A stretch of 42,468 bases of DNA, taken from IMG/VR virus record IMGVR_UViG_3300009605_000039, positions 1 to 42,468 of that record. The stretch is one strand, 5' to 3'. Under the pieces are notes generated by a model. That model worked only from the letters and a program-made list of their open reading frames with translations. It did no database searches and was not told the origin of the DNA. Source of the DNA: a virus. Of the stretch, positions 3,469 through 18,592 are shown one piece after another. The position numbers and the translations under genes are program-made. Numbering within the stretch: position 1 is the stretch's first letter; the number at the start of each line of letters is the position of its first letter.

Positions 3469-3921
3469 TCACTCTACTAAGTCTGTCCAATCTGAACCTG
3501 AAAATACCCGTGCGGAGCCACGATTTGTACCTGTAGCCTTGTAACTGCAATGGACCCAGCCGGACGCAGGCTGGCCTTCCTTGTAAAACTCCAAGATCAA
3601 CTGGTCGAACACAAGATTGTCTTTGACCCAAAGCGCGACCTCCTTGTTGGAAACACCAGGAACCTCGAAATCCACCGCCTGTCCTGTGATATGCTGCGAT
3701 CTGCTTGATGAACCAATCGCCGTGTTTAGCTCAGGGCAGCGAAACGCGCTATTTGGGACAAATGGTATCCCATAATTAACTCTGACAGGCTCCAAAATCT
3801 TCTCGCAGAGGATGGTTAGATTTTCGATCTCTTCCTCTCCAGGCACGTTCTCAATGCCTTTGCGCTCTGCGGTGGAGGATTTTGTCAGCTCCTCAAGCGT
3901 AAAATGCGGCGAGAGTTTCAT
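3469..3921 (-). CDS. Endolysin, peptidase M15 family (D-Ala-D-Ala / L-Ala-D-Glu type)
   Basis: The 150-residue protein has the M15A zinc-peptidase signature: SAFRCPELN near 58 to 66, SQHITGQAVDFEV with H77 and D84 as zinc ligands, and GWVHCSY with H124 as the third. Members cleave peptide cross-links of peptidoglycan. It has no signal peptide, so release would depend on the holin encoded downstream. The start overlaps the end of the upstream small gene by four bases (ATGA). The length is normal for phage single-domain M15 endolysins. Confidence 0.9.
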   Translation of the reverse strand: MKLSPHFTLEELTKSSTAERKGIENVPGEEEIENLTILCEKILEPVRVNYGIPFVPNSAFRCPELNTAIGSSSRSQHITGQAVDFEVPGVSNKEVALWVKDNLVFDQLILEFYKEGQPASGWVHCSYKATGTNRGSARVFSGSDWTDLVE

Positions 3922-4120: not shown

Positions 4121-4444
4121 TTACCAGGGTAAATCCGGCCTTCTTGCTGCCGGAGTAGCTATGTCATCTGTTTGCGCTTGGACATCCGCCTGAACCTCGT
4201 TTCTGTTCACGCCTGCTGCCCAAATCCAGCCCAAGACTTGATTAAGTGTTAAACTGTCATACGCGGTGAAGGCGTCGCCCCGTGTGTATTGCACAGAACA
4301 ACTGCCATATTTTGATCCGGTACGCCCAGATTCAACACCAGTGCATCTCCAATGAACGTCACAAACTACATTAGATTGGCCTTCAGCGCTGGCATGGCAG
4401 ACCAGTCCATTCTCAGGTATGGACCAAGTGAAAGTAGCGGCCAT
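4121..4444 (-). CDS. Small tail-associated protein (DUF7936-like)
   Basis: The 107-residue protein begins MAATFTWSIPENGLVCHAS and contains VVCDVHWRCTGVE, YGSCSVQY, TLNQVLGWIWAAGVN and a terminal DLPW. This order matches a small family usually encoded directly after phage tail-fibre genes (DUF7936, recalled from memory). Its start overlaps the stop of the tail-fibre gene (TAATG), so it is likely made together with it. It may be a fibre-associated or tip protein; the role is not known. Confidence 0.7.
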   Translation of the reverse strand: MAATFTWSIPENGLVCHASAEGQSNVVCDVHWRCTGVESGRTGSKYGSCSVQYTRGDAFTAYDSLTLNQVLGWIWAAGVNRNEVQADVQAQTDDIATPAARRPDLPW

Positions 4445-7380
4445 TATGAATTTCCTTTCTCTACCGCGCTTACGCGGGCTTTAAGTTCGTCGATCTCCCC
4501 CAAGGCTTCCTGCAAAGATTTCGTAAGTATAGGAATTAATGTCTGATATGCGACACTTAAATATTTCTCACCTTTAACAATGCCCTCTGCGTAAATTTTT
4601 CCAGCTAGAGCTTGCTGTAATTCCTGAGCAATAAATCCTGGCTGAATGGAGGTGTCTTTTGAGTAATTGCTTTTGTAGCTGAATGTTACAGGACGCAGAT
4701 TTGCTACGACTTTTGAAGCATCATTCAAATCAGCTATGTTTTCTTTTAGTCTCTCGTCGGAACCATTTACATATGCCCCTTGGCCCCAAACTCCCGTGCC
4801 ATTGCATTGGAGATTGTAGGCACCTTGGTCAGATGACCCGGCAATCATAACCTCTCCAGCTTGGGTAATCCGCATCCTCTCTGAAGGGCCTGATCCTGGG
4901 CCTACGCCATTAGCCTTGGTGTAAAATCGCATGTTCGCGCCAGCCGCAGAGCCGCTGTGATTTTCCGAGGCATAAGCTGAAATCATCGCGCTGGATGCAA
5001 ACAAATTATTGGCGCTATCCTCACCCCTCATTCCAAAAGAACCCAAGCCTTCACCAGAACTGGGCTGAGAACCATCTTCTTTGACCAGAAGAACGCCGCC
5101 ACCTGCGCCAGCGCTTAGAACCGCAATTCCTAGATTAGTGACTGTTGGTTCAGCGTTATACCCAACAGCCACATGGTTTACCCCGCCATTAACGTACAGA
5201 GCGAATTGCTGTGAATTAGATTCAACACGGAAATCTGCGTCTGCTCCGGCTTCGTTGATTGTTGTCTTACCATCGAAGGACGACACGCCTGTTACAATTA
5301 AGGTATCGTCCGATTCATCCCAGAGCATGTATTTGCCGGAAGTAGCACCAAAGAACTTTACGTCCTTTCCTGTATCATTCACGCCAACGGACAAAGTGCC
5401 ATCAAGCTGAACATTGCCGTCAATATCAACAGCGTCGAGGTTAGTAGTACCTGCTATGTCGGCATCGCCGCTAATATCTAAACTGCCGCTATCAAGAACA
5501 CCTGTCAGCGTTATATTGCGAAAACTTGCTATGTCTTTGTTGCCATCAACTACAACAGTCTTAGAGGCAACTACCGTGCCAGCCGACGCTGTATCGTTAA
5601 AATTTAGCTCCGCTGCGGTGGTGGTAACGGCTGTGCCGCCAATAAGCAGCTTATCTTTGACAATATCGACAAGCGCACCACCCGCCGTTAGTAATTTGTC
5701 AGCGGATTCATCCCATTCAATGTAAGCACCGCTTGTGTCACCGAAAAACTTTACGTCTTTGCCTGTGCCATCCACACCGACTGTAATCGTTCCGTCAACC
5801 TGCACATTTCCATCAATGTCCACCGCATCAAGATTTGTTGTGCCAACCAAGGTGGTTGTTCCGGTGACGGTAAGAGTGTCTTCACTCTGATCCCATACGA
5901 GTGATTTTCCAGTAGTTGCGCCGAAAAATGTGACATCGTGACCCGTATCATCAACACCAACACTAACTGCTCCAGTAAATAGGCTTGTTCCAGTAACAGC
6001 TATGTTGTGCGAGCCAATGGTTGCGCCGCCTAGTGCCAGGGATGTGGCTGTAGGCGTACTTAGAGCGGGGGAGCCGCTGAATGTCGGACCAGCCGACAAA
6101 ACCATGTTTCCTGTGCCTGTAACGGCATTACTGAGCGTCACTCCGCCATAGGTAAGGGCCGCAGACATTGTAGTTGCGCGGGTGAGCGTAATAGCGCCGG
6201 TTGAAGTCCCGGCCAAAGTAATTGTGCCGGACCCTTTGGCATCAACAGTTAAGTTTTCATTTGTGCCGCTTGATAGGACAGATAGCGCCACGCCTGCCGT
6301 AGCAGCAGCAGATGCGATGTTAATGCCCGTGGCTGATGATCCGGTGGACGCATCGACGTTAAATGCCGGGTTTGTTGCTCCATTAAGACCGACAGATAAA
6401 GCGGTTGCCGCAGATGAGGCAATTAGTAACGAGTCAGCCGACTCATCCCACAAGCAAGACATGCTGGCGGTTGCACCAAAAAATTTAACATCCTTACCCG
6501 TGTCGTTTACGCCAACCGTAACCGTGCCGTCTATTTGGACATTACCATCAATATCAGTGGCATCTAAATTTGTAGTACCGACCAGAGTGGTCGTACCCGT
6601 TACTATTAAGGTGTCCTCAGATTGATCCCACAGCAAAGATTTCCCAGTGGAAGCGCCGAAAAGAGTAACATCATATCCGGTGTCATCCACGCCTACCGTA
6701 ACGGTATTGCTGATCTGTGTTGCACCACTAATATCAACAGCGCCGTTAATATCCAGCGTAGTCGTTGTGATTTCGACTTCTGTATCAGCATCTATATCTA
6801 GCTGACCATCAGCCGACGAGTATATTTTAAGAGCGTTATCTCTGAACTGAACTTCGTCCGTTGTCGATAAAACAACATCTGTCCCGCCGCTTGTATTCCC
6901 AATGGCAAGAACTTCTGCAAGCGTGTCAGCCGTATCTATCTGGTCATCTACATATTTTTTAATTGATTGTTGGGTGCAAAGCAGAGTGGCGCTGTCACTC
7001 GCCATATTATCTTCGTCTACAATGTTTGTAACGGAAACGGACCCCGTTCCAGATAGATTGTCAAATTCAAAGGTGGTGGCATCAACAGTCCCAACAACTA
7101 TTAGACTGTCTGCGCTTTCGTCCCACAGCATATACTTGCTGGCAGTCGCGCCAAAGAATTTAACATCGTGTCCGGTGTCATCTACACCGACAATAACAGG
7201 GCCAGTAAAAGTGTAACCGCTGCTCGCCCCAGCAAAGGCAAGGGCATTTGAGCTATGGGTAATTGTTACGTCGCTAGAGTTCCAATTAATTACGCCCCCA
7301 CTATCTAAGATGAGGTCGGGGTCTACCCTATCGAAGATATAATTGAGCTTTCTGACCTCTTTGTCATCAAATCGGGCCAC
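4444..7380 (-). CDS. Long tail-fibre protein with six repeats and S74 chaperone domain
   Basis: The 978-residue protein opens with a short N-terminal region. About six copies of a 35-residue unit follow, built on VGVDDTGHDVKFFGA, a K/S-x-LLWDES core and ADSLIVTG, alternating with TTNLDAxDIDGNVQxDG linkers. These are typical trimeric beta-fibre repeats. Residues about 690 to 830 form a block also present in the neighbouring fibre gene. The C-terminus has the peptidase_S74 intramolecular chaperone: SDERLKENIADL, NLRPVTFSYK, PGFIAQELQQAL and a final coiled coil, which in the family trimerises and then cleaves itself off. The start is GTG directly after the previous stop, with GGAGG upstream. It most likely binds the host surface. 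Confidence 0.9.
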   Translation of the reverse strand: MARFDDKEVRKLNYIFDRVDPDLILDSGGVINWNSSDVTITHSSNALAFAGASSGYTFTGPVIVGVDDTGHDVKFFGATASKYMLWDESADSLIVVGTVDATTFEFDNLSGTGSVSVTNIVDEDNMASDSATLLCTQQSIKKYVDDQIDTADTLAEVLAIGNTSGGTDVVLSTTDEVQFRDNALKIYSSADGQLDIDADTEVEITTTTLDINGAVDISGATQISNTVTVGVDDTGYDVTLFGASTGKSLLWDQSEDTLIVTGTTTLVGTTNLDATDIDGNVQIDGTVTVGVNDTGKDVKFFGATASMSCLWDESADSLLIASSAATALSVGLNGATNPAFNVDASTGSSATGINIASAAATAGVALSVLSSGTNENLTVDAKGSGTITLAGTSTGAITLTRATTMSAALTYGGVTLSNAVTGTGNMVLSAGPTFSGSPALSTPTATSLALGGATIGSHNIAVTGTSLFTGAVSVGVDDTGHDVTFFGATTGKSLVWDQSEDTLTVTGTTTLVGTTNLDAVDIDGNVQVDGTITVGVDGTGKDVKFFGDTSGAYIEWDESADKLLTAGGALVDIVKDKLLIGGTAVTTTAAELNFNDTASAGTVVASKTVVVDGNKDIASFRNITLTGVLDSGSLDISGDADIAGTTNLDAVDIDGNVQLDGTLSVGVNDTGKDVKFFGATSGKYMLWDESDDTLIVTGVSSFDGKTTINEAGADADFRVESNSQQFALYVNGGVNHVAVGYNAEPTVTNLGIAVLSAGAGGGVLLVKEDGSQPSSGEGLGSFGMRGEDSANNLFASSAMISAYASENHSGSAAGANMRFYTKANGVGPGSGPSERMRITQAGEVMIAGSSDQGAYNLQCNGTGVWGQGAYVNGSDERLKENIADLNDASKVVANLRPVTFSYKSNYSKDTSIQPGFIAQELQQALAGKIYAEGIVKGEKYLSVAYQTLIPILTKSLQEALGEIDELKARVSAVEKGNS

Positions 7381-8232: not shown

Positions 8233-10989
8233 TTACGGCACTCCTCTTGGAGGCAGCGGCGGGGGAGTTTCCCCCTGGTCAAGCCCACGAAGTTGAGCAG
8301 GCGTTTGCAAAAGTTCTTGCCATTCCATGCCCCCCACAGGCTGATTAGACACTGACAGCGCCCGCTCATCATACAAGTCTAGCTCAGACATACCCCTACC
8401 CGCAGGAACTGTTGCCCTCCCAGCAATTTCTGAAATTGCAGCAGGTATATTTTGCGACGCTCTTGATGGAAGTGTTGGCGCACCGGGTTCCCTAAAGGGT
8501 ATATTAGGGTCTATTACCCCAGGATACCGTTGGCGTGGTAATGGTCCCGGTGCTTCAAGAGCAAGAGTAGCAGGGTTATACATATTAAAAAGACGAGAGT
8601 CGCTTCTGGCTAATGCCTGTAGCGCAGCACCTCTCCATACATGCCCCTTAACAAATGCCTCTCTTTGCCCAAAGCGGCGAAAGGTATATCGAGCAGCGTT
8701 CTCAAATCCTGGATCACCAGCCCTTTTTGGGAGCGCCGTAAGAGTGGCCGTATCAAATGCCGTTGCAAGCCGTTCCATTTGAGCAATCTCTCTAGGGTTA
8801 TAAAGAATCTCCATAATAGATTTGTCTCTATGCAGAGCCGTATAAAGGTTTTCGCTAAATTTATCTGCCCCAACAAAATCACCTCTCTTAGTCAAAGCAA
8901 GGCGCATAAGCCCAGCCTCTTTAAGCCCATTCCAGACGGGGCTGTTTTCACCCGCCGTACTTTTAATGTGCATTAATCCACTAATAGACTTTGTTTTAAA
9001 ACCCGCCGCAGATGCACCAAAAATATATTGAAGACCTGCCTCTGGCGAATCAGCATTTAAAACATTAAACGTAACAGCAGCGCCACTTGATCGGCTTTGC
9101 TTTGTTGAACCAAATTTTTGAAAATAATCTTCAGCCGTCTTTCTTGAGTTTTTTAGTAGACTAAGCACGGTTTCATCTCCCGTAAAAAGCCCTTGCGTAA
9201 TCGTGTCATCTATCCAGTTGTCGTAAGCCTTTATAAGCGCCCCTATTGCCAAATGCTCTTCGCCGCCCAATTTTGACTCCTGCTGAAGTTTTCGTAGTCC
9301 TACTCTTGTTTGGGTTAATGAACTGTCTAGTTGGTTAGCTTGTGCCGTTAATGATATTGGCCCCCTTTTGGTTTGAAGCGCATCAAGCCACGCCTGCCCT
9401 AAAGGGACGTTATCATCCATAAGCTGTTGATATATGCCTTTAAAATCTACAGGCTTGTCGTCCAAATAGCCTGTTATTAAATTTTTAGCCCGAATGTAAT
9501 TTCCCGCTCCAGGCATTCCTGAAATAAGTAACGCTGCGGTATCTTCTTCTTCCACTTGCCTAATTATGCTGGGAAGTCTGTCCACAGCCTCTGGACTTAC
9601 ACCAAGGTATCTGCCGTGCAGTTTTAAATATGAGTCATTTACAGCTTCTTTGGCTTCATCTGCCAATTCTCTATACGGAACAGTTACACGCTGCCCTACT
9701 TCTTGCCATTCTCGCGCCGCTGGAAGTCCCGTATATTGTCTTTGCAGCTGATGAATGGCTGCAAGACTTTCTTTAACAGTATCACTCTCAGTTTGTTTGG
9801 CTAGTTTTTGAGCCGTTATTCCTGTGCGGCCTCTATAAGCCGCCTCCATAGCTTGCAACCCTTTTTCTTCATATATAACTTGTGGCGCGGTGCCTGTAAT
9901 ATTGAACTCCGCTAAACCAGCAGCCCTGGCAGCTATTTCTGGACTATCGCCACGTTCCGCATAGTTTGCAAAGACCCTTTTTGCGCTAACGTCCATTGTT
10001 TCAATGTCGATTGGTGTAAAGCCCCCTTGTTCAGCGGCCTTCTTTCCTGCTGGTGTAAATCCACCAGTTTTGGGGTCGATGTAGCGCGGATTATGAAAAA
10101 GTTTTTTTACCATCTCTGGCTTTCCCACTAGGGGTGCGAGCGCGTCAAAAGTAGGCCCCATAATAGAGGTCATAGCAGCTTTCCAAAGATCGGGACTTTG
10201 CTTTCCACCAGCAGTCATATTTACGAAATCTATAGCAAGACTAGTGCCGCCATATTTCAGCATAGACTTAAAAAACGAACCAACTGTTATAACCGCCCTT
10301 GCTGCTCTTACTTGAGGCAAAAATGCCAATGCTTCTGCGCCCAGAACAGCAATGTCTGCCTTAGTAAGGCCGGGAATGTTTGGAAGGAATTTTTTCACGC
10401 CCCCGGTTTCAGGATCAGGCATTGTACCAACAATGTATGGTTTAAAAGTTGGGTCTTGAATACTTGGTTTTAATGGCGCTCCTTTTTTTTGAGGCCTAAA
10501 CGCGGGTGGCATAAATGTTTCAAATGTCGCTTCAGGAAAGGCCTGTTGAATAACCCCTGCCCTATCAGCCGGGTCTGCTGATGTGGCAAGACCTAATTCA
10601 AACATCACATTTTTACCAGTAAAAGTGCGTGATGGATCAGGTCTATCTGTGTAACTAATTTCTGGAAGGTCACGATGCTCTTCCCGAAGGGCTAACGGAC
10701 CCTGGGCTGCCATTGCAACGGCTTTAGGCAGCCCGGCTGCCTTTCGCCCAAACCTTCTCCAAGATTCCCCAACGTCTGACAAACTAGTCAAAGTCGGCTG
10801 AGCTTCCAGTCGATTCAAAGTTGCGATATAACGATCAGCTGCGTCATCCGCCTGTCTTTTTAAATTGGTTATTTTAGCAGGGTCTGCGTTGGCAGCTACT
10901 GCTGAATTATACTGTTTTCTTGCGTTCTTAAATATTAACCCCTGGTCTTCTAACATTTGTGAAGTGGCGCTAATTCTAGGTACTGCCAT
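8233..10989 (-). CDS. Large internal-virion-like protein
   Basis: The 918-residue protein starts ISATSQMLEDQGLIFKNARK and is mostly helical, with coiled-coil stretches near the N-terminus and in the middle (ELADEAKEAVNDSYLKL). A hydrophobic segment lies around residues 210 to 270 (ADIAVLGAEALAFLPQ through ITVGSFFKSMLKYGG). The C-terminal 100 residues are proline-rich. No enzyme motif is visible. Position between two other large virion-type genes and the fibres, size and helical composition fit the ejected internal proteins of podoviruses. It shares one base with the upstream gene (TAATG). Function is inferred from context. Confidence 0.6.
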   Translation of the reverse strand: MAVPRISATSQMLEDQGLIFKNARKQYNSAVAANADPAKITNLKRQADDAADRYIATLNRLEAQPTLTSLSDVGESWRRFGRKAAGLPKAVAMAAQGPLALREEHRDLPEISYTDRPDPSRTFTGKNVMFELGLATSADPADRAGVIQQAFPEATFETFMPPAFRPQKKGAPLKPSIQDPTFKPYIVGTMPDPETGGVKKFLPNIPGLTKADIAVLGAEALAFLPQVRAARAVITVGSFFKSMLKYGGTSLAIDFVNMTAGGKQSPDLWKAAMTSIMGPTFDALAPLVGKPEMVKKLFHNPRYIDPKTGGFTPAGKKAAEQGGFTPIDIETMDVSAKRVFANYAERGDSPEIAARAAGLAEFNITGTAPQVIYEEKGLQAMEAAYRGRTGITAQKLAKQTESDTVKESLAAIHQLQRQYTGLPAAREWQEVGQRVTVPYRELADEAKEAVNDSYLKLHGRYLGVSPEAVDRLPSIIRQVEEEDTAALLISGMPGAGNYIRAKNLITGYLDDKPVDFKGIYQQLMDDNVPLGQAWLDALQTKRGPISLTAQANQLDSSLTQTRVGLRKLQQESKLGGEEHLAIGALIKAYDNWIDDTITQGLFTGDETVLSLLKNSRKTAEDYFQKFGSTKQSRSSGAAVTFNVLNADSPEAGLQYIFGASAAGFKTKSISGLMHIKSTAGENSPVWNGLKEAGLMRLALTKRGDFVGADKFSENLYTALHRDKSIMEILYNPREIAQMERLATAFDTATLTALPKRAGDPGFENAARYTFRRFGQREAFVKGHVWRGAALQALARSDSRLFNMYNPATLALEAPGPLPRQRYPGVIDPNIPFREPGAPTLPSRASQNIPAAISEIAGRATVPAGRGMSELDLYDERALSVSNQPVGGMEWQELLQTPAQLRGLDQGETPPPLPPRGVP

Positions 10990-12665
10990 TACTGCCCCCC
11001 TCCAGGCCCCGAACCAAAGCCGGGGATTTCTCCGCCGATTACCTCTATGTCGTCCTCATTTCCGTTCTCCGGGCGATTGGGATTAAAAGGTGTACCAGCA
11101 AAAGGTGTAGGAGCCCCTTCTGTTGTTTTTTCAGCATAACCGCTTATTTCGTTAAATTCTTCTACCGTCATTACAGAGCCAAGTCTTTGCCTCTCATCCA
11201 CCCAATCCGTATGAAAGTCTAAGGCGTCAAGTTTGCCAGCATTAAGGTCTGCTCTGTTTTCCTTTCTCCATGCATTAGCAAATGAAAGAAAATCGCGTTC
11301 CCGTTGTATTTTTTTCCTAAATATAGCAACAATTAGCTTGTTCGCAGCAGGCGTATTAGTCAGGTTTGCTGGCAGTTGTGTAAACCATCTGCGCTCCGCT
11401 TCAGTTAGTTGAACGTCAGAAATGTCTTCTCTTAGCATAATTCCCAGCCTGTTGGCGGTGTTCTGAGCAACTTCTGCTTCTTCGACTCCCTCGACCTCAA
11501 TTCCAAATAAGGTTTGTGCCGCTTTCTTAATGGTGAGCATAAATTCCGCACCCGTTCCCGTATATGTATTCTCAAGCGAAGCAGAAAGGATGTTGAGCAT
11601 TTCCTCTCTGTCGGCCATTGCAGGCCCTTTCAAAATCAAAGGCTCAATAAGTTTTTTCCATGTGTCGTCGACACTCGCTTCACCGAAATACTCAAAAGTT
11701 ATATTCTGATCGCCTTCTCTCGAAACCCCGAGTACATTAGCGTTTGGATTTTTCCTTTTGTAAGCCGCAATTTCTCTGTTTGTCATCAGTTGCGTAGGAC
11801 CGCCGTTAATGCTGACATTGGTTTGTGACGCATCTGGATCAATTTCGCTTGGCTGACCAAAAAGTTCTACCGTCGCGTCGTGATAAGCCTCTGCTTTGTT
11901 AAAATCACCCATTGCGATTGCGGTAAGCATAGCTTGTGCTACAACGGGGTGGGCAACTTGACCGACAAGATTAAACATAGCCTCCATTTTATCTTGGTCC
12001 TGCTCTGCACCAATATTTATAATACGCTCCACTTCCTCTACAGGAACATCAAATATAGGAGCCAGTTGCTCTGCTTGACTTCGTGCTACCGCAGCCCTTT
12101 GGTCTGGAGCCGCTTGAGCAACTATGCGGGAAGCCGCCGGAAACAATTTTGCTGACGCTTCGGTTCTTTTTAAATTATGATCGAACGCCGCATAATCATC
12201 CTGCGTTTTTTGCCTTGCTGCCGCATCCTTTTTATCTCTAGGCGTGGGCAATCCAAGTCCTGCCGCGACAACATTTCCAACAAGATCGCGCATTCCACCG
12301 GCATAATCCTGATTTATATCCCTTGGGTTTTCTACATAACCTTCAGAAACCGGCCTTTCCAGAGGATTTTCTGGCGTCGCCTCTTCTACACGCATACGAT
12401 TAAATAAATCTCGCGCCTGCGATCCTACGTTAGCGGGTGTAGTGTCCATTGCTGCTACGCCCGTATCCCTCCAGGATGGCTGTCCTGGTGGCGGTGGTGC
12501 CGCTGGCGGCTGGGCCTCCATTAACGCCAAAGGCGAAAGCTGTTGTGGTGTTTGAGCCGCCATATTAAGGCCAGAACCATTTACCGGCACCCCTGGACCT
12601 CCGACACTTCTAGCCATTTCATCGGCATTTAAGATCGGGTTGCCTTGTGAATCTCTTATAGCCAT
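10989..12665 (-). CDS. Internal-virion-like protein, function unknown
   Basis: The 558-residue protein has a Pro/Ala-rich N-terminus (about residues 30 to 70, with AAPPPPGQPSW), a long helical middle (residues about 130 to 480) and an acidic, Gly/Pro-rich C-terminus. No signal peptide, membrane segment or catalytic motif is evident. It lies between the Pro-rich virion protein and the 918-residue protein, so it probably belongs to the same ejected or core-protein set. It is translationally coupled to the next gene by a one-base TAATG overlap. I do not recognise a family. Confidence 0.6.
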   Translation of the reverse strand: MAIRDSQGNPILNADEMARSVGGPGVPVNGSGLNMAAQTPQQLSPLALMEAQPPAAPPPPGQPSWRDTGVAAMDTTPANVGSQARDLFNRMRVEEATPENPLERPVSEGYVENPRDINQDYAGGMRDLVGNVVAAGLGLPTPRDKKDAAARQKTQDDYAAFDHNLKRTEASAKLFPAASRIVAQAAPDQRAAVARSQAEQLAPIFDVPVEEVERIINIGAEQDQDKMEAMFNLVGQVAHPVVAQAMLTAIAMGDFNKAEAYHDATVELFGQPSEIDPDASQTNVSINGGPTQLMTNREIAAYKRKNPNANVLGVSREGDQNITFEYFGEASVDDTWKKLIEPLILKGPAMADREEMLNILSASLENTYTGTGAEFMLTIKKAAQTLFGIEVEGVEEAEVAQNTANRLGIMLREDISDVQLTEAERRWFTQLPANLTNTPAANKLIVAIFRKKIQRERDFLSFANAWRKENRADLNAGKLDALDFHTDWVDERQRLGSVMTVEEFNEISGYAEKTTEGAPTPFAGTPFNPNRPENGNEDDIEVIGGEIPGFGSGPGGGQ

Positions 12666-12708: not shown

Positions 12709-14934
12709 CTAAAGCGTAACACGGCTATAAGGACCTATGCCTAATGCTTGTGTCTGATCTCTTGGCCCACCAATAGTCGGCAGCGGTTGTAAATTAACTG
12801 GAATGTTAAGATTTCTGGGAATGCCAAGGTCTATGGGGCTACTTGTACGTACATCGTATGGTCTATCTCGATAATCTTTAATCGCCTCGCCTAATTCAAG
12901 GCCAGCCGCTCCATAATTAATTGTGCGCGGATCAAAAGTAGGAAGCGCCGTGCCGCCAGTTGGAAACGACGGAGCGCTACCGCCTGCCGCCCTGGCAAGA
13001 TCAAGTCGTTGAGTTTGTAGGTTTTGCCCCAAAGTTGTTAAGCCCCCAAGAATCCCTAATCTTCTTTGCCTTGCCTGTTCCTCAATATTGGCTTGTGTTG
13101 TCCCAAGTTGTGTTAATGCTTGCACTTGTGGATACCTTGCCTGTGCTGCGGCTTGACCATATGACAAAGGAATGTTGAGCTTTAGCTGTGCTTCTTGTCC
13201 GGCAAGCTCTCTGCTTACATCTCCCATCTGCCGCTGATATTCTGCAACAATACGCCCCGCCCTATCTAAATTCGCTGTATCTCCAGGGCGAAGTCCAAGG
13301 GAGGGAGCTATTTCGTCAAAAACGGCCCTCAAGCCTTCTGCGCGATCCCTTTCAGCGCTTGTCTGAGCCCTAGCTCTTGCGGAATCAATGGCAGCTTCAA
13401 TCTGTTGATTTTGCTGCGGAGTTAGCTGAAAGCCACGCTCAAGTTGAGTAAGGCCCGTTGTAATAAACCCTATAGCGTTATTTAGCGTCTGCGTTGATGT
13501 TCCTGGACCAGCCCCCGCCCTGGGAAGCGTTGGAACGCCTGCCGGTGCTGCATAAGCAGGTCTTGCAAACTGAGGCTGCTCAAAGCCCGTGATACCAGCC
13601 GTATCCATTGGCGGTTGCATTGGCGGTCCCATTTCCTGACCCATTCTTTCTCGGAAAGCCCCTGCGGTTTCTCCAGGAGCAGGAGCTTGTGATGGGTATT
13701 GCCTGCCAATCTCATCAAATTCCATGCGCCGCTGGACTGAAGCTCTTTCCACCTCGGCGGAGTAATCCTCCGCTTCCAACGCCTCACGCCGCCTTTGGCG
13801 AAATTCTGCCGGGGATTCATCTGGGTCACGAACAAGCCCAAGCCGCTCATCTTGCCTGCGTCTACGCTCTGCGGGAGATAATGCAGGCTCAATTACAGGT
13901 GTAGGCTCTATCGGAGCCATAGGAGCATCTTGAGAAGGAGCAAGGCCAATAGGCGAAGGCGCTGGTTGAGGCATTGGTGCTGCTTGAGGGGGGCTACCTC
14001 TTACCCAACCAGGAGGGGGTGCATAACCGCCACTAGGAGCCGTCCAGCTTTCCCCGGTCGTTGGATTGTAAAACGGCACTTGGGCCATAGTAGCCATACC
14101 GGAAGGAGGGGTAAATCCAGGGGGCGGCGGTGGCGGCATACCCCTTGACGGTGCTGGTGGAGCAAGGCCAATGGGTGAGGGAGCTGGTGCAGGTACAGGT
14201 GCAGCTACAGGCTGAGTGGCTGCCAAATCAAGTGGGGTAGGTGCCACTTGAGGGGGTGATGGCGGTAATGGAGGTCTTCCGCCAAAAGGAGCGCCCGGCT
14301 GTCTTATCGGTGGTGGGCGGCGTAACTGACCTGCTTCAAATGCCCGCTGCCGGGCCATAATGTCTTCTTGTGTAAGCGTTCCATCACGCTGACGCCGCAT
14401 GAAGTCCCCAATGCCAATTTCCCTCTCTTCTGGCGGGGGTGGCGGTGGTGGTCGCTGCCCAGGTAAAGGCGCTGCGGTTCTTTGAAATTGGGAAAGGCTT
14501 GGTGTTTGGCCGGGACCAGCCTGGGTCATTCCTGAAACATTTAATTGCGGGTAATTTGTTTTAAGCTCCTGGAGCCACATATCACCTACATAAGCAAGTG
14601 GTTCTTGTATGCCTGTAGCATAATCCGCTTGAGTAGCCGCCCCCCTGCTTAAAACATCATATTGAAGGTCAGCCAGCTTCATTTGTTGATTAAAATAGAG
14701 CCTTTGCTCCGGCGTCATCGTTCTGGCTTTTTCGTTTTCTCTAATCTGAGCCTGCTGCATAGACTTAGCGGTTTTCGAGGCACCTTTTTGCGCTAGCAAA
14801 GCACCGCCCGCTGTTGCTGCGCCAGCAGCGCCAGAAAGAAGAGCCCCAGTAGTGCCTAGAGCCGCAAGGCCCCCTGCCGCTGCCGCACCTGAAGCGACGC
14901 CAGCTAATGCTCCTGCTGCAACTGCGAAAGGCAT
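12709..14934 (-). CDS. Proline-rich internal virion / DNA-ejection-like protein
   Basis: I chose the ATG that overlaps the cupin stop (TGATG) and has GGGAGA upstream; an earlier in-frame start would only extend it into the cupin gene. The 741-residue protein starts with an Ala/Gly-rich hydrophobic region (about 5 to 48: AVAAGALAGVASGAAAAGGL onward) able to enter a membrane, then a helical stretch. Residues about 140 to 350 are extremely proline-rich (PPPPPPP runs and two copies of PAPSPIGLAP), followed by charged helices and glutamine-rich coils. A membrane-active start plus long helices fits an ejection protein. The upstream dioxygenase and cupin genes raise the question of modified residues in the Pro-rich part. 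Confidence 0.65.
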   Translation of the reverse strand: MPFAVAAGALAGVASGAAAAGGLAALGTTGALLSGAAGAATAGGALLAQKGASKTAKSMQQAQIRENEKARTMTPEQRLYFNQQMKLADLQYDVLSRGAATQADYATGIQEPLAYVGDMWLQELKTNYPQLNVSGMTQAGPGQTPSLSQFQRTAAPLPGQRPPPPPPPEEREIGIGDFMRRQRDGTLTQEDIMARQRAFEAGQLRRPPPIRQPGAPFGGRPPLPPSPPQVAPTPLDLAATQPVAAPVPAPAPSPIGLAPPAPSRGMPPPPPPGFTPPSGMATMAQVPFYNPTTGESWTAPSGGYAPPPGWVRGSPPQAAPMPQPAPSPIGLAPSQDAPMAPIEPTPVIEPALSPAERRRRQDERLGLVRDPDESPAEFRQRRREALEAEDYSAEVERASVQRRMEFDEIGRQYPSQAPAPGETAGAFRERMGQEMGPPMQPPMDTAGITGFEQPQFARPAYAAPAGVPTLPRAGAGPGTSTQTLNNAIGFITTGLTQLERGFQLTPQQNQQIEAAIDSARARAQTSAERDRAEGLRAVFDEIAPSLGLRPGDTANLDRAGRIVAEYQRQMGDVSRELAGQEAQLKLNIPLSYGQAAAQARYPQVQALTQLGTTQANIEEQARQRRLGILGGLTTLGQNLQTQRLDLARAAGGSAPSFPTGGTALPTFDPRTINYGAAGLELGEAIKDYRDRPYDVRTSSPIDLGIPRNLNIPVNLQPLPTIGGPRDQTQALGIGPYSRVTL

Positions 14935-15332
14935 CAGACTTCTCCCTTTACAATGTGGTGTTCTTCCAAAATTTGAACATCTCCCTGCCGAGCAACATTG
15001 TGAATGCAATATATCACAGTCTCGTCCTCAAGGGATAGGAAGGTGTGTTTTACACCTGCTTTAATCTCTATGCCCTTTGGGGCAACGTAATCACCTATTT
15101 CCACGCCATCTGCCCACGCTCTTACTGATCCGGTGGCAAGTAAAGAAACGTGGTCGTATTGGTGTGAGTGCTGTGGAACGACAGTTCCCGCATCAGGAAT
15201 GTGCATTTCCTTAATAAACACGCCGTCAGAGGTGTAAACCTCTATTCCATAAGGCTGATTAGGATGAGCCACAGGGTCGTCCCCACAAAGCCCGCACCCG
15301 TTTTCTACACATGGGTTTCGTGGGTCTGTCAT
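14934..15332 (-). CDS. Cupin-domain protein
   Basis: The 132-residue protein is one small cupin barrel. Motif 1 is G49 followed by H55-x-H57 and H61 before G68; motif 2 has AGVKH with H96. H55, H57, H61 and H96 could bind a metal, with His replacing the usual Glu. The N-terminus carries a cysteine cluster (C8, C13, C16) that could hold a metal or Fe-S site. Its ATG overlaps the stop of the dioxygenase gene (ATGA), and its own stop overlaps the next start. A small-molecule-binding or dioxygenase-type role is possible; no substrate can be named. It is unusual inside a virion-gene operon. Confidence 0.75.
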   Translation of the reverse strand: MTDPRNPCVENGCGLCGDDPVAHPNQPYGIEVYTSDGVFIKEMHIPDAGTVVPQHSHQYDHVSLLATGSVRAWADGVEIGDYVAPKGIEIKAGVKHTFLSLEDETVIYCIHNVARQGDVQILEEHHIVKGEV

Positions 15333-15919
15333 TGCGGCCTCCGCTCAATCATATCAGTACGAATACAGATAATAAGCGTCGTTTTGTTAGAGTCGCTATT
15401 ATTTTCTACCCAATGAAGTTTTCTATTATCGAAAAGATACAAGTCTCCAGGCTTGGGCTCTATTTTTTGTTCTACACCCTCATGCTCACATCCAAACACC
15501 GCTCCAGGAGAATTTTCTAAAGAAACATAAAACTTTTCATAATAGTCAACATGCCAAGAATCATCTTTATGCGCTTTTATCTTTCCGCCAGGAGGGATGC
15601 GGGTAATTAAAACCGCACCTATCATTTCGCCGCGAACAGCAGCCATAATGTTAAAAACGATTGGCTTTAATTCAGTAAGAATATCCCAAGAATTATACCA
15701 AATAGGAACGTGCCTATCATTAAAGGTGGAATAGTCTCCGCTTTCTTCGTGAGGGGCTACATTATTATATCTTACCCATATATCTGACATTTCCCCATGC
15801 GCTGTTTGAGGAGCCGTTTTGCGCCTAGTGTGGGCGTCCCACAATTCAGGGTGCTGGGCAATTTGCTCCAGCAAGGGGGCTACATTTATATCTTCATAGA
15901 GTTTTTGAAAGTGTTCCAT
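15329..15919 (-). CDS. 2-oxoglutarate/Fe(II) dioxygenase, aspartyl/asparaginyl beta-hydroxylase-like
   Basis: The 196-residue protein has the AspH-type double-stranded beta-helix core: ITRIPPGGKIKAHKDD gives H117-x-D119, and FDNRKLHWVENNSD gives the distal H169, the Fe(II) triad. K179 or R187 (TLIICIRTD) could bind the 2-oxoglutarate carboxylate. Known relatives hydroxylate Asp, Asn or Pro side chains in proteins. The ATG overlaps the tail-protein stop (TGATG), and its stop overlaps the cupin start, so it belongs to the structural operon. The target is not shown; a virion protein encoded alongside is the simplest guess. Confidence 0.82.
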   Translation of the reverse strand: MEHFQKLYEDINVAPLLEQIAQHPELWDAHTRRKTAPQTAHGEMSDIWVRYNNVAPHEESGDYSTFNDRHVPIWYNSWDILTELKPIVFNIMAAVRGEMIGAVLITRIPPGGKIKAHKDDSWHVDYYEKFYVSLENSPGAVFGCEHEGVEQKIEPKPGDLYLFDNRKLHWVENNSDSNKTTLIICIRTDMIERRPQ

Positions 15920-17493
15920 CACGCCTCAAAACTTTCTCCGCCTGGAGTAATTAGGGCGTTAATAGAATGAATCTCGACATCTTCATTAAAAATATTATTC
16001 GCAATATCGAACTGAATAGCTCTGAACTCCCCGCCTGTCTCAGCACGGAAAAAATTATCGCCATAGCCGGGAACACCAAGAGTATCTGTTCCGAGAATAA
16101 AAGTTCCCAATTTTACGCCCGGAGATGTCGTTGAAACATTCTCTGTTTGTCTTGTGGCTCCATCGCGCCGCCAGCCAAAAACAACAGTCCCGTCAGTTCT
16201 GGGGTTAAAAACCAACGCGCCCCCGCTAAACTGCTTCATCATTTCTGGGAGTTCGTACTGGAGAAACGGCGTGGCGACTGACATAGAAATGCTTTCTGTG
16301 CCGTCCACATTTCTATTCTCCTGCCCAAGAGTGCGGAGAAAGCCATCATCACATCCAGCAAGAATATTCGTTAGCCCTGTACTAGCGTTATACCCTTCAG
16401 CTAACGAGTGAACATTATCGAGCTTGCTCCATTGCGCCCAACGTCCTGGTTGAAAACGATAATCATACATTAGAACCATATTAGGTGTTGAACTGGCTCC
16501 TGTTGGAATAGCAAATAGGAGTAGGCTGTGTTTTTGCCAATTTACGGTTCTAGCAACATTCATTTTATCAAGGTTGGCGTTTTCTCTCAGCCAATTAGCA
16601 ATTGGGTTTGTAAGAGCTGAGTGTTCAAAATCCCCATATTTCTCAGTAGCCGAGAGCGTATGAACTTCTCCTCCCTGCCAAGTAAAAGCGACATCATTCA
16701 TATAATGAGTGATTGTATTGTGCGCTACGCAGCCTATTCCCTTAGCAAAAGGGCGACGGGCAAAGGCGTCTGATCCTGTAGGGGCAGAGCCTTCGATAAA
16801 ATGAATGGAGCCTTTATAGGGGCCTTTGAATACATATAGCCTATCTTGGAACGACACAATTCCAGTAATCCTGTCACCATCATCAGGATCAATCGTAATG
16901 CTCCCACTTCCGGCACTAGCCCAATCGGCAGGATCGTTATTTACAGAATAGTAGAGGGTGGAAGGATTGGCTTTAACTCCAGCAGCCCAACACTTTTGTC
17001 TGTGAACTGTAGAAAAGGCAAACCTCGGAGGCGATCCCGCAAGGTTTTGCGCTGTGCTTCCATCCCAAGACTTCGGCACTTCGTTTTCGTTTGACATGAT
17101 GAGAAGGTCTTCAAAGACCGTATAATCAGGGGTCGAGCCAGCGGTCATGCTGGTAAAAAGGTCGCTGAAGCTATCGTCTGCATCGTCTTTTTTAATCTTC
17201 GTTCCAACGTGCATAACCCTGTGTTGAGCAGGAGTTCCGCTTGTGCCGGTAAGCCAAAGATCATAAATCCCTGTAATAGCGGCACTACTTTCTAATGCGC
17301 TCGCAAAGTTCTTCGTCATTCCTTCTATCTTGTGAGGCCCGCCATCAAGTTCGTAATAGCAATTCTCCGCCGCATTGAGCCACGGAAGCTCAACCCTGTT
17401 TCCTTGAATGGGAACATAAGCCGTAAAGCCAAAATCAGTGGCCCACCCTCCCCCAAAGGTGTGTACGAGGAATTTGCTACTACGCTTTGCCAC
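15919..17493 (-). CDS. Tail protein, P22 gp10-like beta-propeller / nozzle
   Basis: The 524-residue protein opens MAKRSSKFLVHTFGGGWATD and has repeated beta-propeller-like strands: YTVFEDLLIMSNENEVPKSW, GIVSFQDRLYVFKG, NDVAFTWQGGEVHTL and RWAQWSKLDNVHSLAEG. This order resembles phage stabilisation or nozzle proteins of P22-like and T7-like podoviruses, which plug the tail below the adaptor ring. It directly follows the adaptor gene with a one-base overlap (TAATG). Assignment rests on fold-like repeats, size and context, not on a short signature. Confidence 0.65.
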   Translation of the reverse strand: MAKRSSKFLVHTFGGGWATDFGFTAYVPIQGNRVELPWLNAAENCYYELDGGPHKIEGMTKNFASALESSAAITGIYDLWLTGTSGTPAQHRVMHVGTKIKKDDADDSFSDLFTSMTAGSTPDYTVFEDLLIMSNENEVPKSWDGSTAQNLAGSPPRFAFSTVHRQKCWAAGVKANPSTLYYSVNNDPADWASAGSGSITIDPDDGDRITGIVSFQDRLYVFKGPYKGSIHFIEGSAPTGSDAFARRPFAKGIGCVAHNTITHYMNDVAFTWQGGEVHTLSATEKYGDFEHSALTNPIANWLRENANLDKMNVARTVNWQKHSLLLFAIPTGASSTPNMVLMYDYRFQPGRWAQWSKLDNVHSLAEGYNASTGLTNILAGCDDGFLRTLGQENRNVDGTESISMSVATPFLQYELPEMMKQFSGGALVFNPRTDGTVVFGWRRDGATRQTENVSTTSPGVKLGTFILGTDTLGVPGYGDNFFRAETGGEFRAIQFDIANNIFNEDVEIHSINALITPGGESFEA

Positions 17494-18521
17494 TATCTAT
17501 TCCTTAATTGATCAAAGGCGTCACCTGCCGTATAGCGGCCACGTCTACCAGAGCGGTAAGGGCTTCTAGCCATTCTGCGATAGGGCGTCATTCGAGGCTC
17601 TATGCGTGGGCGGCGCTCACCGATCTCCGTAGAAGACGCAATACGAGCCATTATTTGTTCATATTCTGCCTTTGCCTCTCTTGTTCTGTCATCGTCCTTT
17701 TTGTCTCTATACCAATGGTATAAAGCGTGAAATACGATGGCATGGCGATAAGAAAATGGGACGATTGGCTCATCAGTGTCATTAACAAGGGACTGAGAGG
17801 CCGTGCCAGAGGCATTTACCGCTAACTTATTCGTGACAAAGCTGTATGGAATATCATAGGCATCATCAGGTGGTTTGTAGAACTGGACTCTTCTGACAGG
17901 AGAAGTGCTGCTTACAAACGCCCTATCCACAATCGTCGCTACACTGGGCTTGCCTGTGGTGTTTACCCTTACATATTCACGGCGAAACCGAGTTCGGTCT
18001 AAAAGCCTAATAGAGCGGTCATCATCAAAGGAATGAATATCTATAGGCCGTAGGAAGTCAGCGTGAAGATCATATTCATCTTCATAATAGAGATATGTTC
18101 CGCCGCTTACTGTAGCTCCTACATATTTTTCATTCAGGGTAATCTGTGTGGCAGAATCTACTGAAGCGATGGTGTAAACAGGAGCAGTGCCGCTAATTAT
18201 AAGTTTGCCTGTAGTGCGAGCATTATCATCTCCCCAGGCATTGTCGGTGGTAAAAGCAGTTCCAGAGCCGGTGAGAGTTGTTGAACCCTGGCTAATAGAC
18301 ACAGTGCCGGTAGTATATTTTGGATGCGTGATAAGACTTGTATTACGCTCTGACCAAGGAAAACGCTCCTCGAAGCCAATGTGCATGTCTTGGAGAGCTA
18401 CATTGATATAGCGCTGTGCCTGAGTGACAGTCGCACTACCTGAAGTGGTTTGCTCACGGGTAGCATTAAGCAATCCGGTATATAAGTCCGAAAAGTCTTT
18501 ATATTGTGTTGCACTGCCCAT
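17493..18521 (-). CDS. Head-to-tail adaptor protein
   Basis: I chose ATG (MGSATQYKDFSDLY) because an ideal GGAGGAG site sits eight bases before it; a further-upstream TTG would overlap that site. The 342-residue product has a helical N-terminus (YTGLLNATREQ, QRYINVALQDMHIGFEERFPW), an inserted beta domain (about 70 to 145: TGTVSISQGSTTLTGSGTAF) and a helical C-terminus (YRHAIVFHALYHWYRDKKDD) followed by a basic tail. This is the usual design of podoviral adaptors (gp4 / Phage_adapt class) that sit under the portal. It precedes the nozzle-like gene. Confidence 0.7.
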   Translation of the reverse strand: MGSATQYKDFSDLYTGLLNATREQTTSGSATVTQAQRYINVALQDMHIGFEERFPWSERNTSLITHPKYTTGTVSISQGSTTLTGSGTAFTTDNAWGDDNARTTGKLIISGTAPVYTIASVDSATQITLNEKYVGATVSGGTYLYYEDEYDLHADFLRPIDIHSFDDDRSIRLLDRTRFRREYVRVNTTGKPSVATIVDRAFVSSTSPVRRVQFYKPPDDAYDIPYSFVTNKLAVNASGTASQSLVNDTDEPIVPFSYRHAIVFHALYHWYRDKKDDDRTREAKAEYEQIMARIASSTEIGERRPRIEPRMTPYRRMARSPYRSGRRGRYTAGDAFDQLRNR

Positions 18522-18592
18522 AAAAGGCTCCTCCAAAAACTATAAGCTCCACGGAGGAACTAGGGCCTAGTACGCCTCCACAATCTTTGCCA

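Follow-up and report, generated by a model that had tools for sequence, protein, structure and literature searches.

The virus record IMGVR_UViG_3300009605_000039 from IMG/VR, whose whole stretch of 42,468 nucleotides we analysed and call the window, carries a gene for a 2-oxoglutarate (2OG)/Fe(II) oxygenase followed by a gene for a cupin. Both belong to a chain of overlapping genes, all on the minus strand, that runs from a tail gene through the oxygenase and the cupin to a protein with an Ala-rich start and a Pro-rich stretch. The tail gene and the oxygenase overlap at TGATG, the oxygenase and the cupin at ATGA, and the cupin and the last protein of the chain, of 741 amino acids (aa), at TGATG. 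The initial annotation of this region had proposed that an 'AspH-type' dioxygenase and the cupin, acting as a pair, modify a virion protein made from the same messenger RNA, with the Pro-rich protein as first candidate. Its coordinates, overlaps and motifs (H117, D119 and H169 in the oxygenase; H55, H57, H61 and H96 in the cupin) all proved correct on re-check, and the upstream gene it called gp10-like does resemble the P22 gp10 'stabilization' proteins. Judged by sequence comparison, the fixed partner of the oxygenase gene is the neighbouring virion gene, which in relatives encodes a DNA-ejection protein. The genes at the locus are as follows.

15919..17493, minus strand: P22 gp10-like tail/head-closure protein, 524 aa (phrog_3287, 3e-16; tblastn to 'phage stabilization protein' records)
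15329..15919, minus strand: 2OG/Fe(II) oxygenase, 196 aa, with H117-x-D119...H169 and K179 (PF05118, 5.7e-7; AlphaFold2; Foldseek; 159 relatives)
14934..15332, minus strand: cupin, 132 aa, with ligands H55, H57, H61 and H96 and conserved C109 and H111 (phrog_12032, 2.9e-11; alignment; AlphaFold2; Foldseek)
12709..14934, minus strand: 741 aa protein in the ejection-protein slot, starting MPFAVAAGALAG, Pro-rich at residues 155-354 (placed by position and N-terminal pattern only)
10989..12665, minus strand: 558 aa protein in the place of a second ejection/internal virion protein (placed by gene order only; no match in Pfam or PHROG)
8233..10989, minus strand: 918 aa protein in the place of a third ejection/internal virion protein (placed by gene order only; no match in Pfam or PHROG)

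Relatives of the oxygenase were found in IMG/VR (533 confirmed stretches in one scan; two further scans, which overlap with the first, gave 351 and 420), in three GenBank phages, and in GTDB genomes, which gave 17 further loci, mostly from Burkholderiales. Prophages with the cassette occur in Paraburkholderia, Cupriavidus and Variovorax, among others. Prophage sampling via phrog_598, carried out in two bacterial groups, gave few loci. The working set holds 260 loci, which collapse at 90% identity to 159 non-redundant ones. We searched downstream of the oxygenase for a gene with an MP[WFYL] start, rich in Ala, Gly or Val, that begins no more than 900 nt after it. Such a gene is present in 136 of the 146 non-redundant loci with enough downstream sequence, compared with 32/1178 when the same search was made after other open reading frames. 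In the usual case, its start lies at about +2 to +4 relative to the oxygenase stop; where a cupin gene intervenes, it lies about 280-390 nt further downstream. In most of the ten exceptions the gene is nonetheless there, but begins MPAGW, has an ATT or ATC start, or has a broken frame; locus L041 has no recognisable MP-type ejection gene downstream. In L026 (near 8640) and L257 (near 5590), the ejection gene apparently starts at ATT or ATC with the Pro-Trp kept (IPWGF and IPWAA). Of the downstream proteins, 26 were compared with profile families: phrog_598 'DNA ejection' was matched by 12 of them (best 4e-50), and the matches of others were to phrog_418 'internal virion protein', phrog_21132, phrog_4287, T7_gp14 (1.5e-7) and P22_gp7 (7e-7). 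Whether related phages keep the trio together had been raised as a check at the outset, and the linkage holds across hundreds of loci. On one contig (IMGVR_UViG_3300026519_000012), two like cassettes of oxygenase and partner (L038 and L039) lie about 33 kb apart, probably because one phage genome was duplicated in the assembly.

The window oxygenase scores above the cut-off of the Pfam family Asp_Arg_Hydrox (PF05118; 30 vs 22.6 bits), and its relative in L053 reaches 59.6 bits. H117 and D119 are identical in 159/159 non-redundant relatives, and H169 is present in all 158 rows that cover that site. The iron triad agrees with a double-stranded beta-helix fold: the AlphaFold2 model has a pLDDT of 96, and its Foldseek matches are 2OG oxygenases with TM-scores of about 0.5-0.65, including a nucleoside-antibiotic beta-hydroxylase, proline cis-4- and 3-hydroxylases and AspH. 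In a profile search, L-proline cis-4-hydroxylase (2.8e-7) and proline 3-hydroxylase (6e-6) came out as the closest solved relatives, although the similarity to these free L-proline hydroxylases spans only about 80 residues. AspH proper has a two-His iron site without an Asp ligand and is a long, TPR-bearing protein. The window oxygenase has Asp119 and is only 196 aa long, so 'AspH-type' is sound as a Pfam family label but does not describe the HxD...H metal site or the closest solved matches. In their HxD...H region, predicted fold and Pfam score, the phage oxygenases are like the members of PF05118, both the free L-proline hydroxylases and AspH; they differ in being phage-borne, 185-200 aa long and tied to a virion gene, and the architecture of human AspH is absent. 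In many 2OG oxygenases, a basic residue after the last iron His holds 2-oxoglutarate. At the corresponding site 179, which the initial annotation had missed, 156/159 relatives have Arg and the window copy has Lys, and therefore the window oxygenase may differ in cofactor binding.

In the cupin, H55, H57, H61 and H96 are invariant in 27 aligned relatives, as are C109 and H111. The window cupin falls short of the Cupin_2 cut-off (PF07883; 16.1 vs 27.2), and its relative in L016 is just above it (27.7). Structure prediction, suggested earlier as a way to judge metal binding, gave a fair AlphaFold2 model (pLDDT 79) with a cupin fold and an HxH...H...H metal-ligand pattern on the beta-barrel. Its best structural and profile matches are small metal cupins such as bacterial KdgF, the MarH epimerase and quercetinase, but the likeness is at the level of fold (about 12-26% identity), and their activities are not transferable to the phage protein. 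Near the N-terminus, at residues 8-16 (CVENGCGLC), the window cupin has three cysteines, C8, C13 and C16, and a Cys-rich start is also found in L009; from its sequence, this could possibly be an extra metal or disulfide site.

A cupin gene adjoins the oxygenase gene in 196 of the 260 loci, after it in 116 and before it in 80; one locus of each order also holds an acetyltransferase-like or gp13-like gene. In 38 others, the neighbour is a sulfotransferase-like P-loop protein, and none of the 260 loci has both a cupin and a sulfotransferase-like gene. An acetyltransferase-like gene is the sole partner in two loci, and 24 have none of these partners, several of them being cut by contig ends. The proposed pairing thus describes the usual neighbourhood, but we rejected the cupin as an obligatory partner, given that a sulfotransferase-like gene can take its place. 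The sulfotransferase label is a motif-level call, made from a conserved GLxRSxTxW P-loop-like motif; these proteins miss the PF13469 cut-off (up to 15.7 vs 27) and had no match in a PDB profile search. In the Pseudomonas phage PfAn1, whose ejection protein has no Pro2, in DC33 and in two Cupriavidus loci, an acetyltransferase-like gene lies between the oxygenase and the ejection gene. Loci L278 and L279 have the order oxygenase, acetyltransferase-like protein, ejection protein starting MVAAAV; their genome (G001) also holds L087, so that it has a second cassette type besides the cupin type. On the oxygenase tree (155 rows), parsimony gives 18 changes of arrangement, several of them forced by supported branches. 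Therefore the neighbourhood has been rebuilt, and through these changes the ejection gene has stayed linked to the oxygenase. An independent-pairs test of cupin against sulfotransferase had too few pairs.

Gene 13 directly precedes gp14 in T7, as gene 14 does gp7 in P22. These resemble the cassette in that a small protein is encoded directly before an ejection protein; T7 gp13 and P22 gp14 match unrelated families, whereas the slot in the cassette phages holds proteins with conserved metal sites. Neither the oxygenase nor the cupin of the window matches phrog_308 (T7 gp13), and a gp13 homologue stands beside the cassette only in L035, where the order is a true T7 gp13 homologue (phrog_308, 5.8e-30), oxygenase, cupin and T7-gp14-like protein. 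Cupins of the same family occupy the slot in cultured phages that have no oxygenase (VPMS1, Amaethon, BA3, Vibrio 36E38.1, X14, VvAW1 and others) and in the T7-like Sphaerotilus phage SnaP-R1, which also has no oxygenase. Thus the oxygenase cassette occupies a known slot for small ejection-adjacent proteins. The slot cupins of oxygenase-free phages are often annotated as tail fiber proteins. Those named 'short tail fiber protein' or 'adhesin' (phrog_12032 and phrog_24280, in VPMS1, BA3, VvAW1 and X14) belong to the same cupin family and lie in the same place, but they have no oxygenase and have lost the metal ligands. We rejected the PHROG name as a description of the cupin, since the records that carry it are cupins directly before DNA-ejection genes; by sequence, the name, which is widespread, looks like a propagated mis-annotation.

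Two residue contrasts separate phages with and without the oxygenase. Cupin positions 55/57/61/96/109/111 read HHHHC[HW] in 112/112 complete non-redundant oxygenase-linked cupins, whereas none of about 90 ejection-linked cupins without an oxygenase (a metal-intact query retrieved the GenBank members, a metal-less one those from IMG/VR) has this pattern, their usual state being KHHRTH. Four siphophages have cupins that keep the metal residues, with no oxygenase and away from any recognised ejection gene. The second contrast is at residue 2 of the ejection protein. By an automatic rule, this is Pro in 133/147 oxygenase-linked loci, most of the others being misread starts, compared with a background of 109/1013 for the starts of other genes within these loci. 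Of 78 ejection proteins from oxygenase-free cupin phages, 74 have Ser, Thr or Ala at this residue and none has Pro. The contrast occurs within three ejection families: phrog_418 (L035 and L014 vs T7), phrog_598 (L019 and L050 vs BA3, 1.036.O and MW202674) and phrog_21132 (L001 vs VPMS1). In two further oxygenase-free phages, the ejection protein starts MG (PAE2) and MS (P26218).

On balance, these comparisons make it somewhat probable that the oxygenase and its partner form a modification cassette dedicated to the DNA-ejection protein encoded by the next gene on the same messenger RNA. In many phages, the cassette genes are adjacent to one another, usually overlapping or abutting, and lie beside the ejection-protein gene. 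The conserved HxD...H site and the confident 2OG-oxygenase fold strongly suggest that the oxygenase would be active. Because of the gene adjacency, the ejection protein is the leading substrate candidate, and a fairly probable one. Within that protein, the N-terminus is indicated by the Pro2 contrast and by the oxygenase's kinship to free-proline hydroxylases, and Pro at residue 2 is a tentative candidate target, with odds that we put below even. Removal of Met before Pro is general, so that Pro2 would become the N-terminal residue and resemble the free proline used by the nearest solved relatives. The metal cupin might then act on or assist the hydroxylated product, and in loci that have no cupin, the sulfotransferase-like protein could use the new hydroxyl group; this part of the scheme is weaker. 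Taken whole, the proposal that a dedicated 2OG oxygenase hydroxylates the N-terminal Pro of the ejection protein and that a metal cupin or sulfotransferase converts the hydroxyproline further is rather doubtful. The cassette would likely serve to adjust how the internal core is assembled or how the ejection protein inserts into the membrane at infection.

Several points weigh against a cassette dedicated to the ejection protein. Linked and unlinked cupins form separate clades with a single change on the tree, so the cupin ligand contrast is, in terms of sequence evolution, one contrast and not repeated evidence. The acetyltransferase-type oxygenase loci (L002, L003, L278 and L279) have ejection proteins that start MV or MG, not MP. 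The conservation of Pro2 may have a different cause, for instance stability or membrane insertion, and the oxygenase-free comparison set consists mostly of cupin-bearing phages. The 741 aa protein of the window is without detectable sequence homology to ejection families, and gene adjacency is also compatible with a host target.

The alternative that survives best, although we consider it unlikely, is that the slot protein serves the ejection protein as an assembly helper or chaperone without catalysis, a role that T7 gp13 and P22 gp14 may also have. The oxygenase and cupin folds would then have been recruited to bind and would catalyse little or nothing. T7 gene 13, P22 gene 14, acetyltransferase-like proteins and metal-less cupins all fill the same slot elsewhere, and the metal-less cupins are proof that this fold can do duty in the slot with no metal site. 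Near-invariant metal ligands, in the oxygenases (H117 and D119) as in the linked cupins, would however be needless for pure binding. Slightly less likely still, the enzymes could act on the host: produced late or injected, they would alter its envelope components or its proteins in the course of infection. The oxygenase has a weak likeness to the lipid A hydroxylase LpxO in NCBIfam (2.9e-4, far under the cut-off), and enzymes injected together with the ejection proteins, which cross the envelope, could reach it; but the linkage is tight, has been repeatedly rebuilt, and is to one virion gene, not to lysis or early genes. A metabolic role on free small molecules, such as hydroxylation of free proline, is improbable: although the closest solved relatives do hydroxylate free L-proline, the sequence match to them is short, and in almost all loci the genes lie in a virion-assembly operon beside one structural gene. 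Most improbable is the original version, in which the oxygenase and cupin hydroxylate the 741 aa protein within its long Pro-rich stretch. That stretch is real and adjacent to the cassette, but the cassette persists where the neighbouring protein is mostly 1-4% Pro and has no such stretch.

The Pro-rich stretch was accordingly rejected as a shared substrate and as the reason for the pairing. The 741 aa protein has 59 Pro within residues 155-354 and 97/741 overall (13%), which makes it an outlier among the proteins next to the oxygenase in other phages (1-10% Pro, median 2.9%). Pro-richness is peculiar to this phage and therefore not a common substrate; in the best explanation, the Pro-rich region would be a local elaboration of the ejection-slot protein. 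The assignment of this protein to the slot comes solely from its position and its MPFAVAAG start. It has no family match in Pfam or PHROG, including the ejection families phrog_598, 418, 21132, T7_gp14 and P22_gp7, and an N-terminal profile of the relatives' ejection proteins scores it at -7.5, with 14/300 shuffles as good. What stands of the original proposal is that the pair may modify a virion protein from the same messenger RNA, the linked partner being the virion gene next door, an ejection protein in relatives; the Pro-rich stretch as its basis does not stand.

At infection, the ejection proteins of short-tailed phages pass through the host envelope and undergo changes of shape (T7 gp14: PMC11784390). 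In the open-licence papers we searched, partly with narrow searches, we found no description of the cassette or of enzymatic modification of ejection proteins. Neither the enzyme families nor the slot is new; what we did not find described in those papers is their combination, how widely it occurs and the contrasts at residue level. If a dedicated modification cassette is the correct explanation, short-tailed phages would chemically mature their DNA-delivery machine, and a checkable role would be offered for the small, poorly understood genes before the ejection proteins in T7, P22 and many others.

Elsewhere in the window, residues 71-152 of an SU10-adaptor-like protein (17493-18536) match the N-terminal part of many tail fiber PHROGs, such as phrog_1980, which would fit the insertion of a tail-fiber domain into the adaptor. 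A 978 aa tail protein (4444-7380) has a Peptidase_S74 endosialidase-chaperone domain at residues 874-926. A staphylococcal-nuclease-like protein (PF00565, 8e-11) lies at 2449-2862, and at 3469-3921 there is an M15 peptidase (PF08291, 1.6e-19) that is likely an endolysin.

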